Below the pieces are notes generated by a model. It was given only the letters and a program-made list of their open reading frames with translations. It was not told the DNA's origin and ran no database searches. A stretch of 64,000 nt of DNA from Verrucomicrobiota bacterium. Lineage in GTDB: Bacteria; Verrucomicrobiota; Verrucomicrobiia; Limisphaerales; JACRJY01. Positions 21,502 to 55,970 of this stretch are shown here, piece by piece. The first letter of the stretch is position 1, and every line of letters starts with the position of its first letter. The DNA lies in assembly GCA_016235585.1 (NCBI GenBank), contig JACRJY010000157.1, forward strand, positions 31,398 to 95,397, written 5' to 3'. A program made the translations under genes and the position numbers.

Positions 21502-21620
21502 ACCAGTGGAACATCCGGCAAATCACTACTCCGGCAAAGGTTAAAGTGCGGTGGCATCATTCACCGGCTTCGTTCACAAGCGGGCTTGCCACAAATCCGG
21601 CTCCGGCCTAGAGTGCCAGC

Positions 21621-21842
21621 GTGACCTCGACCACGATCATTGAGGAAATCCGCCATCTGTCCCCCGCCGGACAAGCGGAGGTGATCCGCTTCACGCTGCA
21701 ACTCGCCCGCGAGCGCGCCCTGACGCCCGACGAACTGACCGGGCTGGCGCGGCGCATGGTGGAGTCCAATGATCCGGCGGAGGTCGAGCGGCTCAAGAGC
21801 GCGATTACTGGCGGCTTTTACGGAGACGCGGCTCATGCCTGA
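21621..21842 (+). CDS. Small protein, cassette gene A copy 1 (antitoxin-like N-terminus)
   Basis: MTSTTIIEEIRHLSPAGQAEVIRFTLQLARERALTPDELTGLARRMVESNDPAEVERLKSAITGGFYGDAAHA; homologous to 53507-53749. Confidence 0.7.
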   Translation: MTSTTIIEEIRHLSPAGQAEVIRFTLQLARERALTPDELTGLARRMVESNDPAEVERLKSAITGGFYGDAAHA

Positions 21843-22077
21843 AATCCGCCGCGTCAATCTGCCTCCGGCGCTGCTGGCCCATCTCCTCGACCGCATCAAA
21901 CAACGGCAAATCTCCGCCGAACAGCTCGGCTTGCTGGCCGCGTGGCTCGACACGCATCCCGAAGTGCCGCCGGGCAAATGGTTCAAGCGCTTTCCCGGCA
22001 TGATTGCCTGCGGCGAAGGCGAACTGATAAAAACTTTCCTGCTGCCGGGCCAGTTGCCAGAAGGGCGGGAGCTGTAG
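21835..22077 (+). CDS. Small protein, cassette gene B copy 1
   Basis: MPEIRRVNLPPALLAHLLDRIKQRQ...WLDTHPEVPPGKWFKRFPGMIACGEGELIKTFLLPGQ; 8-nt overlap (ATGCCTGA) with gene A; homologous to 53742-53987. Confidence 0.75.
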   Translation: MPEIRRVNLPPALLAHLLDRIKQRQISAEQLGLLAAWLDTHPEVPPGKWFKRFPGMIACGEGELIKTFLLPGQLPEGREL

Positions 22078-52597: not shown

Positions 52598-52624
52598 CTC
52601 TCGATATTTGTCCTCCGCCTCCCG

Positions 52625-52931
52625 TTATGAAACCCGCCGCATGAAATCCGCCTGACTCGACATCTCCATCCCCGTCCATACCGGCATGGTTCACTGGCCG
52701 GAGTAGCATCACCAAGGCCCGCGCGCGTTTTCCCTTCCGTCTGTCGCGCTTCCCGGCGAAACTGCCCGCGTTTATGCAGCAATATCTCGACCTCCTCCGG
52801 CTCGTCTTGGACCAGGGCAATATCTCGACCTCCTCCGGCTCGTCTTGGACCAGGGCAAGTTCAAGGCCGACCGCACCGGCACGGGCACCTACTCGCTCTT
52901 CGGCGCGCAGGTGCGCTTCGACCTCCGCGCC
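52625..52931 (+). pseudogene. thyA: Broken thyA 5' end plus upstream cyclase-family remnant (copy 1)
   Basis: Parallels 54046-54317; contains a 38-bp tandem duplication (52780-52817/52818-52855) and stops abruptly at the toxin stop codon. Confidence 0.85.
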
Positions 52932-52933
52932 AT

Positions 52934-53194
52934 TCAGCCGTCCTTGAGCAGCCGCTCGTATTCGTCATGGGGGCCAATCCAGAACCAATACAGGACGCCG
53001 TCCTGAATCCGCCCCAAGGCGCGATGGCCGCTGGACACGCGGGCCGTCCAGTAGTCGCCTTTCTTCTCGAAGCGGAGCGAGGGGTGGCGGGAATTTTCCA
53101 GCCAGAGCCGGTAAGCCTTGCGCGCCTGCGTCCGCACCCTGGGCGGCAGGGCGTGGTAAGCGGCCCAGAAGTCACTGGTCGTTGAGGACTTCAT
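52934..53194 (-). CDS. RelE/ParE-superfamily toxin-like protein
   Basis: [76 protein letters not shown]. Confidence 0.82.
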
Positions 53195-53393
53195 CGAGGG
53201 GCTTCACCCGTCCGGCGGCGATGTCGGCCTGGGCCTTGCGCCACAGCTTGTCCAGCCGCCCGGCGGCAACGTCCGCGTCCATCTGCTTGTCCCACTTGTC
53301 GTCGAGGTAGTCTTGCAGCCAGCCCGCGATTTCCCAGGCCTCTTTTTCGGGAAGCTGGCGCAGGGCCGATTCGATTTCAGTCACGGTGCTCAT
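53172..53393 (-). CDS. Cognate antitoxin-like protein
   Basis: [73 protein letters not shown]; overlaps the toxin start. Confidence 0.75.
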   Translation of the reverse strand: MSTVTEIESALRQLPEKEAWEIAGWLQDYLDDKWDKQMDADVAAGRLDKLWRKAQADIAAGRVKPLDEVLNDQ

Positions 53394-53506
53394 GGGCGCA
53401 CAGTAGGGGGCCGGGCGCGGTTTGGCAACGCAAACGAAGCACGGATCGAAATGAACGAGCGCCCTTTTCATTTGAACGCCACCTTGTTGTTCAGTAGGTT
53501 TGCCGC

Positions 53507-53749
53507 ATGACAGCGACCACGGTCATTGAAGAAATCAAGCACCTGCCGCCCGGCGAACAATCGCGCGTCCTCCGCTTCGCGTGTGACCTCGCGCGTGAAC
53601 GGCAGTTGTCGGGCAGTCCCGCCCCGCTCACGCCCGAGGAACTGGGCGAACTGACCCGGCGGATGGTTGAGACCAAAGACCCCGCCGAGGCCGCTGGCTT
53701 GCAGGCGGATATCATGCGCGGGTTTTACGGTTCCGCTGCGCATGCCTAA
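53507..53749 (+). CDS. Small protein, cassette gene A copy 2
   Basis: MTATTVIEEIKHLPPGEQSRVLRFACDLARERQLSGSPAPLTPEELGELTRRMVETKDPAEAAGLQADIMRGFYGSAAHA. Confidence 0.72.
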   Translation: MTATTVIEEIKHLPPGEQSRVLRFACDLARERQLSGSPAPLTPEELGELTRRMVETKDPAEAAGLQADIMRGFYGSAAHA

Positions 53750-53987
53750 AATCCGCCGCGCCAAGCTGCCTCCTGCCTTGCTGGCCCACCTGTTGATGCG
53801 GATGCGCGAACGGAACATCGCCCACGAACAAGTCGTTCTTCTCACCCGCTGGCTCGACACCCAGCCCGAAGTGCCGGACGGCAGATGGTTCAAAAAATTC
53901 TCCGGCCTGACCGTCTGCGGCGAAGGCGAACTCATCAAAACCTTTTTGCAGCCCGGCCAGGCCGCCACGGGTGAGGAGTTGCATTGA
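53742..53987 (+). CDS. Small protein, cassette gene B copy 2
   Basis: MPKIRRAKLPPALLAHLLMRMRERN...WLDTQPEVPDGRWFKKFSGLTVCGEGELIKTFLQPGQ; 8-nt overlap (ATGCCTAA). Confidence 0.75.
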   Translation: MPKIRRAKLPPALLAHLLMRMRERNIAHEQVVLLTRWLDTQPEVPDGRWFKKFSGLTVCGEGELIKTFLQPGQAATGEELH

Positions 53988-54195
53988 GCCGGACATGGCC
54001 AAGGTAATTTCCAAAGTTGAACGGCGCTGAATTATTTTCCCCTTCGCGTTATGAAACCCGCCGCATGAAATCCGCCTGACTCGACATCACCATCCCCGTT
54101 CACACCGGCATGGTTCACTGGCCGAGGTAGCCGCTTCAAGCCCGGCGCGTTTTCCCTTTCGTCCGGGGCGCTTCCCGGCAAAACTGCCCGCGTTT

Positions 54196-54990
54196 ATGCA
54201 GCAATATCTCGACCTCCTCCGGCTCGTCTTGGACAAGGGCAAGTTCAAGGCCGACCGCACCGGCACCGGCACTTACTCGCTTTTCGGCGCGCAGACGCGC
54301 TTCGACCTGCGCGCCGGCTTTCCGCTGCTGACCACGAAAAAACTGCACACGAAGTCCATCATCTACGAGCTGCTCTGGTTTCTGCGCGGCGACACGAACG
54401 TCAAGTATCTCAACGAGCACGGCGTCACCATCTGGAACGAGTGGGCGGACAAGGACGGCAGCCTCGGCCGCGTCTATGGCGCGCAATGGTGCGACTGGCG
54501 CACGACCGATGGCCGCAGCCTCCACCAGATTGACCAGGTCATCGCGCAGATTCAGAAAAATCCCGACAGCCGCCGGCACATCGTCAGCGCATGGAACGTC
54601 GGCGAGCTGGATCAGATGGCGCTCGCGCCGTGCCACACGCTGTTCCAGTTTTACGTGCGCGACGGCGAGCTTTCCTGCCAGCTCTACCAGCGCAGCGCGG
54701 ACCTCTTCCTCGGCGTGCCGTTCAACATCGCCAGCTACGCGCTGCTCACGCGGATGGTTGCGCAGGTCACGGGGCTGAAAGCGGGCGACTTCGTCCACAC
54801 CTTTGGCGACCTGCACCTCTACGCGAATCATCTCGAACAGACCAAACTCCAGCTCACCCGCGAACCGCGCCCGCTGCCGGTGCTGAAGCTCAACCCGGCG
54901 GTGAAAAACATCCACGACTTCAAGTTCGAGGATTTCGAGTTGACCGGCTACGACCCGCATCCGGGCATCAAGGCGCCGATTGCGGTGTAG
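54196..54990 (+). CDS. thyA: Thymidylate synthase, intact copy
   Basis: [32 protein letters not shown]...[11 protein letters not shown]...[12 protein letters not shown]...[17 protein letters not shown]. Confidence 0.97.
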
Positions 54991-55362: not shown

Positions 55363-55569
55363 ATGAGCGACCGCCAGCTTGTCCTCGAAACGGTGCAAAA
55401 GATGCCAGCCAAGGCGTCATTGGGGGAGATTCTCGATGAACTGGCCTTGCTGGCCTCGGTGAACCGCGGACTGGCCGAGGCGGAACGCGGCCAGGGCGTG
55501 CCGCAGGAACAAGTGGTGAAACGCTTTCGCACATGGATTTCAAAATCCTCTGGACGCCGGAAGCAATAG
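55363..55569 (+). CDS. Antitoxin-like protein
   Basis: MSDRQLVLETVQKMPAKASLGEILDELALLASVNRGLAEAERGQGVPQEQVVKRFRTW; overlaps the ParE-like ORF. Confidence 0.72.
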   Translation: MSDRQLVLETVQKMPAKASLGEILDELALLASVNRGLAEAERGQGVPQEQVVKRFRTWISKSSGRRKQ

Positions 55570-55847
55570 CGCGGCTGGAAGAACTCGCCGGCTACATCGC
55601 GCAGGACAATCCCGCCGCCGCCGCGCGGATGGGGGCGGCGATTTTCGAGAAGGTGCAACTGCTCTCCGCATTTCCCGAACTGGGCCGGGTTTTCCGCAAG
55701 CTGAACCGCCCGGATGTGCGGGAAATTCCCGTCCGACCTTACCGGGTCATCTACCAAGTTCGGTCGCGGAAGAAAACCATCAGCATCCTCACCGTCTGGC
55801 ACGGCGCGCGGCAGGAGCCGGAGATTATTCTGCATGAGGCCGGGTGA
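55533..55847 (+). CDS. ParE/RelE-family toxin
   Basis: MDFKILWTPEAIARLEELAGYIAQDNPAAAARMGAAIFEKVQLLSAFPELGRVFRKLNRPDVREIPVRPYRVIYQVRSRKKTISILTVWHGAR. Confidence 0.9.
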   Translation: MDFKILWTPEAIARLEELAGYIAQDNPAAAARMGAAIFEKVQLLSAFPELGRVFRKLNRPDVREIPVRPYRVIYQVRSRKKTISILTVWHGARQEPEIILHEAG

Positions 55848-55861
55848 TGCGTTGGCCGAAC

Positions 55862-55970
55862 GCTGAAGCTCAACCCGGCGGTGAAGAACATCCACGACTT
55901 CCAGTTCGAGGATTTCACATTGGAAGGCTACGACCCGCATCCGGGCATCAAGGCGCCGATTGCGGTGTGA
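55862..55970 (+). pseudogene. thyA: 3' fragment of a second thyA copy
   Basis: [35 protein letters not shown] near-identical to the intact ThyA C-terminus. Confidence 0.93.

Follow-up and report, generated by a model that had tools for sequence, protein, structure and literature searches.

A pair of short genes, A and B, occurs twice in a 64,000-nucleotide stretch of a Verrucomicrobiota genome (the window), and we conclude that it is probably a toxin-antitoxin (TA) module resembling type II and belonging to a family absent from the libraries searched. That the pair is a module of the TA type is very likely, and B is predicted with good confidence from sequence comparisons to be its toxic partner. 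The first-pass annotation had proposed a candidate new TA-like or regulatory pair; pairing of the genes, domain swapping in A and asymmetric decay support the TA side of this proposal.

Examining copy 1, we found that the two short overlapping reading frames are real (Table 1) and that they lie between genes for a Dus dihydrouridine synthase and a YjgF/RidA-type protein, in keeping with the location between dusB and ridA given in the first pass. Protein A of copy 1 carries a DUF2281-like N-terminal domain and then a conserved C-terminal segment with a GFYG end; the longer ORF of gene B in this copy, from 21769, is a mechanical start only. The full homologous pair annotated at 53507-53987 also exists, being alike in order, strand and 8-nt overlap. 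The B proteins of the two copies are 66% identical (BLASTP E 3e-31) and the A proteins 56% (BLASTP E 2e-29), and the source genome contains two A-B copies in total, both inside the window. Dozens of other genomes contain homologous pairs with this gene order, which places the pairing of A and B far above chance. The 8-nt overlap is exact in 22 of 61 A-B pairs, the remainder having mostly gaps of 1-9 nt, and in copy 1 the overlap makes translational coupling of A and B likely. Purifying selection acts on both genes, with a median dN/dS of ~0.25 in B and ~0.35 in A. We rejected the possibility that B is a shadow ORF of A, given that beyond the 8-nt overlap B is read in the other frame and has its own conservation and dN/dS.

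Table 1. Coordinates of the A-B copies, their predicted promoters and the neighbouring features in the window.
Feature	Position	Strand	Details
Predicted promoter, copy 1	21586-21614	+	-35 TTGCCA (21586-21591), 17-nt spacer, -10 TAGAGT (21609-21614), 6 nt, GTG
Gene A, copy 1 (A1), predicted antitoxin	21621-21842	+	GTG start, 73 aa
Gene B, copy 1 (B1), predicted toxin of a new family	21835-22077	+	ATG start, 80 aa
A/B overlap, copy 1	21835-21842	+	8 nt, ATGCCTGA
Left direct repeat	52614-52931	+	region upstream of thyA plus the beginning of the gene (truncated copy)
ParE-like toxin	52934-53194	-	PF24732 E 0.001, below cut-off
Antitoxin-like gene	53172-53393	-	predicted leaderless promoter TTGCCA-17-TACTGT-6-ATG, same type as that of A
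Predicted promoter, copy 2	53472-53500	+	TTGAAC, 17 nt, TAGGTT, 6 nt, ATG
Gene A, copy 2 (A2)	53507-53749	+	ATG start, 80 aa
Gene B, copy 2 (B2)	53742-53987	+	81 aa
A/B overlap, copy 2	53742-53749	+	ATGCCTAA
Right direct repeat	54038-54315	+	continues into intact thyA (54196-54990)
Antitoxin-like ORF, 3' side of thyA	55363-55569		
ParE toxin, 3' side of thyA	55533-55847		PF05016 E 2e-23

Analysis of 245 genomes of the same order revealed that all 43 intact Bs are immediately preceded by an A, recognised by eye in one case, and that the order is always A then B. Full-length As are accompanied by an intact B in 38 of 56 cases and stand without one in the other 18, and the asymmetry between loss of A and loss of B gives a Fisher p of 9e-6. 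The totals of 43 and 56 were read by hand, and the test uses the counts from the 245 genomes because the A-only loci of the deduplicated set were partly chosen for lacking B. Among all deduplicated loci there are zero intact Bs without A, nearly all Bs are directly downstream of a gene bearing the C-terminal motif of A, and remnants of B are present at several A-only loci. Thus A and B are not mostly apart, the outcome that the first-pass annotation had named as speaking against a module, and the arrangement is that of type II TA systems, in which two small neighbouring genes point the same way and are conserved together. A can outlive B and B never outlives A, the pattern predicted for a TA pair in which B is harmful without A; the distal position of B in the operon could by itself cause its more frequent loss. 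The direction of this decay bears as well on the possibility that the pair is regulatory and non-toxic, with A bringing B to RNA or DNA as an adaptor or transcription factor, or with B as a co-regulator, tuning a stress operon. Such a role is consistent with B falling in no recognised toxin family and with several N-termini of A being DNA-binding domains, but A is the gene that persists, its N-domain also fronts genes upstream of known toxins, the distribution is patchy and mobile, and no conserved neighbouring target gene is apparent at the loci read. We therefore consider a regulatory pair unlikely and retain the TA reading.

Protein A has the layout of a type II antitoxin, a DNA-binding/dimerisation N-domain with a separate C-terminus, at the level of domain architecture. 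Beside B its C-terminal motif (LSPEELGxLAxRMxxxxDPAExxRLxxxIxRGFYG) is constant while the N-terminus varies. In most Verrucomicrobiota the N-terminus consists of DUF2281-like helices; the first-pass assignment to this type was right, at a level below the Pfam cut-off, since the matches to DUF2281 (PF10047) have E values of 0.0033-0.035 and scores of 15.1 and 18.4 bits and do not reach the gathering cut-off of 26.5. Acidobacteriota carry an RHH-type N-domain (RHH_1 E 0.011, below cut-off), some As carry an XRE HTH domain (Pfam HTH_26 E 4e-5, above cut-off), and further N-termini contain a Phd-like stretch, seen by eye, or are short and basic. An AlphaFold2 model of A from copy 1 shows four helices (pLDDT 84.7), for which a fold search of the PDB returned no match. 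The codons GGNGAG in the C-terminal part of A may also serve B as a ribosome-binding site, and part of the conservation of this segment could stem from that role.

The DUF2281-like domain is found also in other small genes, without the C-terminus of A. Reading the downstream partners from a dozen such loci, picked blind to partner, we found PIN (E 1e-11), PemK/MazF (E 2e-24) and ParE (E 4e-7) toxin genes, Fic/Doc at several loci (E 2e-12) and one more partner, a ParE-like protein without a Pfam match. At L220, L222 and L226 a family of ~91 aa (e.g. MKHRYRAVERFWTCFYRLSPQQKESVRRAWKIF...) with no clear Pfam match stands behind DUF2281-like antitoxins and is probably another uncatalogued ParE-like toxin. 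Domain swapping of other type II antitoxins follows the same logic (PMC10440598, PMC8832971), and in the promiscuous antitoxin domains of the DUF2281 and Panacea-like types one N-domain is combined with many toxins, as in A (PMC8832971, PMC10440598); the text of PMC10440598 does not mention DUF2281 by name. Compared with these domains, the N-domain of A stays below the DUF2281 cut-off and has no Panacea match, and B is an additional toxin node.

Exploring the sequence in front of A, we found TANNNT at positions -12 to -7 from the start codon in 31 of 43 A genes of the window's type, against at most 4 of 43 in 2000 shuffles. TTG at about -35 together with TANNNT precedes 30 of these 43 genes and 2 of 421 control genes (0/43 long genes of the window and 2/378 in other loci). 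This geometry predicts a leaderless mRNA whose 5' end coincides with the start codon of A. No operator palindrome, as an autoregulated antitoxin promoter would have, was demonstrated in this conserved region. At L033 and other acidobacterial loci, the 5' UTR of the RHH-type A contains TGAG/TGAGT repeats about one helical turn apart; these motifs, which were noticed by eye and lie after a TATAAT-like box and before the start of A, are candidate RHH operator half-sites.

The annotation of B as matching no family holds across every library tried: Pfam, NCBIfam, PHROGs and PADLOC gave no match above threshold, a sequence search of the PDB gave none, and Foldseek of the B model against the PDB yielded nothing significant (best E 1.1). 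The AlphaFold2 model of B (pLDDT 94.3, pTM 0.82) is composed of two helices followed by three strands (ααβββ; H11-23, H28-38, E48-53, E56-61, E64-69), which in the order of its elements corresponds to the BECR-fold layout of N-terminal helices and then three or four antiparallel strands. Near-invariant residues are H16, R20, R24, W37, W49, K51, C59, G60, G62, K66, T67, F68 and L69, among which W37, W49, C59, G60, K66, T67 and F68 may have structural roles; H16 is the only conserved histidine. The RelE/ParE (BECR-fold) superfamily comprises 13 Pfam toxin families (PMC11980606). The A-B pair shares with it small, often overlapping genes with the antitoxin first, an antitoxin with an exchangeable DNA-binding N-domain and a toxin-binding C-terminus (predicted for A), and a toxin of ~80-100 aa with helices preceding a three-stranded sheet. 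Unlike its members, B has its own invariant motifs (WFK, CG and KTFL), scores below threshold for all Pfam families of the superfamily and has no solved relative that we could find.

Below threshold, DUF4258 (PF14076) was matched by 3 of 61 Bs (best E 0.0098; 12-14 bits where shown, against a cut-off of 25) and Pfam REGB_T4 (PF10715) by one B at E 0.19, and RegB of phage Makalu was among the top, weak Foldseek matches in BFVD. RegB, a cyclising RNase of the barnase type, uses His48 and His68 in catalysis and has a fold similar to RelE/YoeB (PMC3014915). Aligning B to RegB with hhalign gave E 3e-4, and 9e-5 with a deeper, broader alignment, over 24 columns, and placed H16-x3-R20-x3-R24-x-I of B on the His48 helix of RegB with His16 opposite the catalytic His48. 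None of 350 column shuffles reached this score; such shuffles are too easy as decoys, and a real-family control is the fairer yardstick. In that control the real but unrelated alignment of A reached E 2e-3 to 4e-3, almost as well as DUF4258 with B (E 7e-4 to 1.6e-3), indicating that the DUF4258 match is near chance and not convincing alone; the helix match to RegB/DUF4258 spans 20-24 columns. T4 RegB (PF10715, phrog_1323) shares with B the H-x3-R-x3-R-x-I of the first helix and differs in its length of 153 aa, an extra helix, the lack of a known antitoxin partner and a second catalytic histidine, His68, which has no conserved counterpart in B; beyond the His48 helix the two proteins have no sequence similarity. 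DUF4258 has, like B, a histidine near the start of helix 1 and a threonine in the last strand, the sole invariant residues of our local DUF4258 set, and unlike B in spacing and conserved core. Membership of B in RegB (PF10715) was rejected, as only the His48 helix aligns, a full-length match is missing and so is the second catalytic histidine; membership in DUF4258 was rejected because the gathering cut-off is not reached.

Together, the compact helix-helix-three-strand domain and the RegB/DUF4258-like first helix suggest a BECR fold for B. That B is an RNase of the BECR (barnase/EndoU/colicin/RelE) kind we hold tentatively, at slightly short of an even chance. B might instead be the toxin of a TA module without being an RNase, acting by gyrase inhibition (as ParE does within the BECR fold), by modification of a target or by binding to the ribosome. 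We regard this as a somewhat less likely possibility, to which the small size of B, the absence of a recognisable complete RNase active site including the second catalytic histidine of RegB, and the existence of ParE toxins with the same fold and no RNase activity (PMC11980606) lend weight. The helix motif nevertheless matches RegB, catalytic His48 included, and the near-invariant H16, R20, R24, K51, K66 and T67 resemble a polar active site rather than a pure interaction surface, both of which favour an RNase.

To follow the distribution of B, we searched several genome sets, in each of which the source genome is counted where stated. Within the order, B was present in 11 of the 58 genomes of a smaller set and in 51 of the 245 of a larger one; a phylum-wide sample had it in 3 of 388 genomes (own genome counted in all three). 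A scan of GTDB contigs gave 68 B loci, chiefly in Verrucomicrobiota and Acidobacteriota, along with one MAG each under the labels Planctomycetota, Lentisphaerae and Betaproteobacteria. For one acidobacterial carrier we surveyed 200 genomes of its class; 52 of them have B, many of these Bs forming a diverged subfamily (WYKDFGSFKICGEGKFPKTFLLKGQ). Searches of IMG/VR viral contigs, phages and plasmids detected no copy, and a phage-borne module was rejected as no phage homologue of B was found. The distribution is patchy, which fits horizontal spread and loss. In a tree of 61 Bs, rough in resolution since it is built on few columns, copy 1 groups as sister (support 99/93) with a copy from a different genome of the order and copy 2 is placed apart from it, indicating that the copies did not arise by recent duplication; a recent tandem or segmental duplication was rejected on this ground. 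A Verrucomicrobiales MAG (L058:4755-5907, plus strand) contains two A-B pairs one directly behind the other; their As are of the short basic type and their partners are diverged.

Direct repeats flank copy 2. The 5' repeats of thyA, 88-94% identical between left and right, bracket copy 2 together with a ParE-like TA pair on the minus strand (52934-53393) that adjoins it. The truncated left thyA contains a short tandem duplication (52788-52855; ggaccagggcaatatctcgacctcctccggctcgtctt) that is absent from the intact thyA, and the last 107 bp of thyA (54882-54988) are repeated at 93% identity at 55862-55968, beyond a further TA pair. Thus thyA carries TA insertions and gene-end duplications on both its sides. 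Across all loci, with 400 nt taken on each side, direct repeats of 38-174 bp surround 9 of 34 modules of the window's type, compared with 2 of 312 random windows of the same loci (p 1.4e-8). Around the acidobacterial RHH-type modules no flanking direct repeats were found (0/17), and other TA pairs with a DUF2281-like N-domain gave a weaker signal (2/20). The repeats are unrelated between loci and hence appear to derive from the target; at L010 the final 109 bp of the upstream gene, stop codon included, form the repeat, and at L015 and L038 the repeated sequence is likewise the 3' end of a gene.

One could suppose that the copies and their flanking repeats are an artefact of assembly or of recent duplication and that there is no mobile module. 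The source assembly has 221 contigs, the repeats at L015 are 100% identical, and some frameshifts and repeats may be assembly errors in loci that are mostly MAG contigs. Against this, the two copies share just 66% identity and occupy separate places in the B tree, the flanking repeats are mostly 79-97% identical with sequences differing between loci, and the MAGs with A-B pairs have been assigned to several phyla; the divergence of copies from independent assemblies already largely refutes an artefact, which is very improbable. The mobile two-gene module proposed in the first pass is supported by the patchy distribution, the non-sister copies in one genome and the flanking direct repeats, and on balance these sequences favour a spread of A-B by insertion with long target duplication. 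Restriction-modification systems that move on their own, with no carrier, are known to produce target duplications of ~100 bp (PMC3874152). Those systems and A-B have in common a stand-alone selfish gene pair, direct target repeats of ~100 bp and no transposase seen; in A-B the cargo is a TA-like pair of 0.5 kb and the duplicated sequence is commonly a gene end.

In the mechanism that we propose, transcription would start on the first base of the start codon of A, A would be translated from the leaderless mRNA, and B would be translated only through coupling at the overlap, an order that may keep A ahead of B. The C-terminal segment of A would hold toxin B, while its exchangeable N-domain would dimerise and in most types probably bind the promoter. 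Once A is degraded or not renewed, B would be freed and stop growth, most probably by cutting RNA. The promoter-A-B unit would spread as a cassette of ~0.5 kb and often leave the target, commonly a gene end, directly repeated. Binding of B by A, toxicity of B, its RNase activity and the insertion mechanism are what we infer from the comparisons above. A bolder version, in which B is the first member of a new toxin family, as a minimal BECR-type RNase or with a new fold, and the promoter-A-B unit is a transposase-free selfish cassette that duplicates gene ends, we regard as speculative. What is new here is probably the toxin with its partner segment; the TA logic is known and the mobility signature uncommon.

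The A-B unit thus looks like a new TA family in soil and freshwater bacteria, in host phyla that are abundant in soils and genetically little studied, and it adds to a well-studied class a toxin family that none of the libraries used recognises. With it comes to light a combinatorial antitoxin network in which one N-domain and a recurring predicted leaderless promoter are followed by at least PIN, MazF, Doc, ParE and B. For the question of how chromosomal TA modules move without plasmid, phage or transposon, the repeats at about one quarter of the cassettes make target duplication a testable answer. If true, the mobility described for restriction-modification systems would extend to TA genes and would explain the spread of some chromosomal TA modules outside plasmids and phages.
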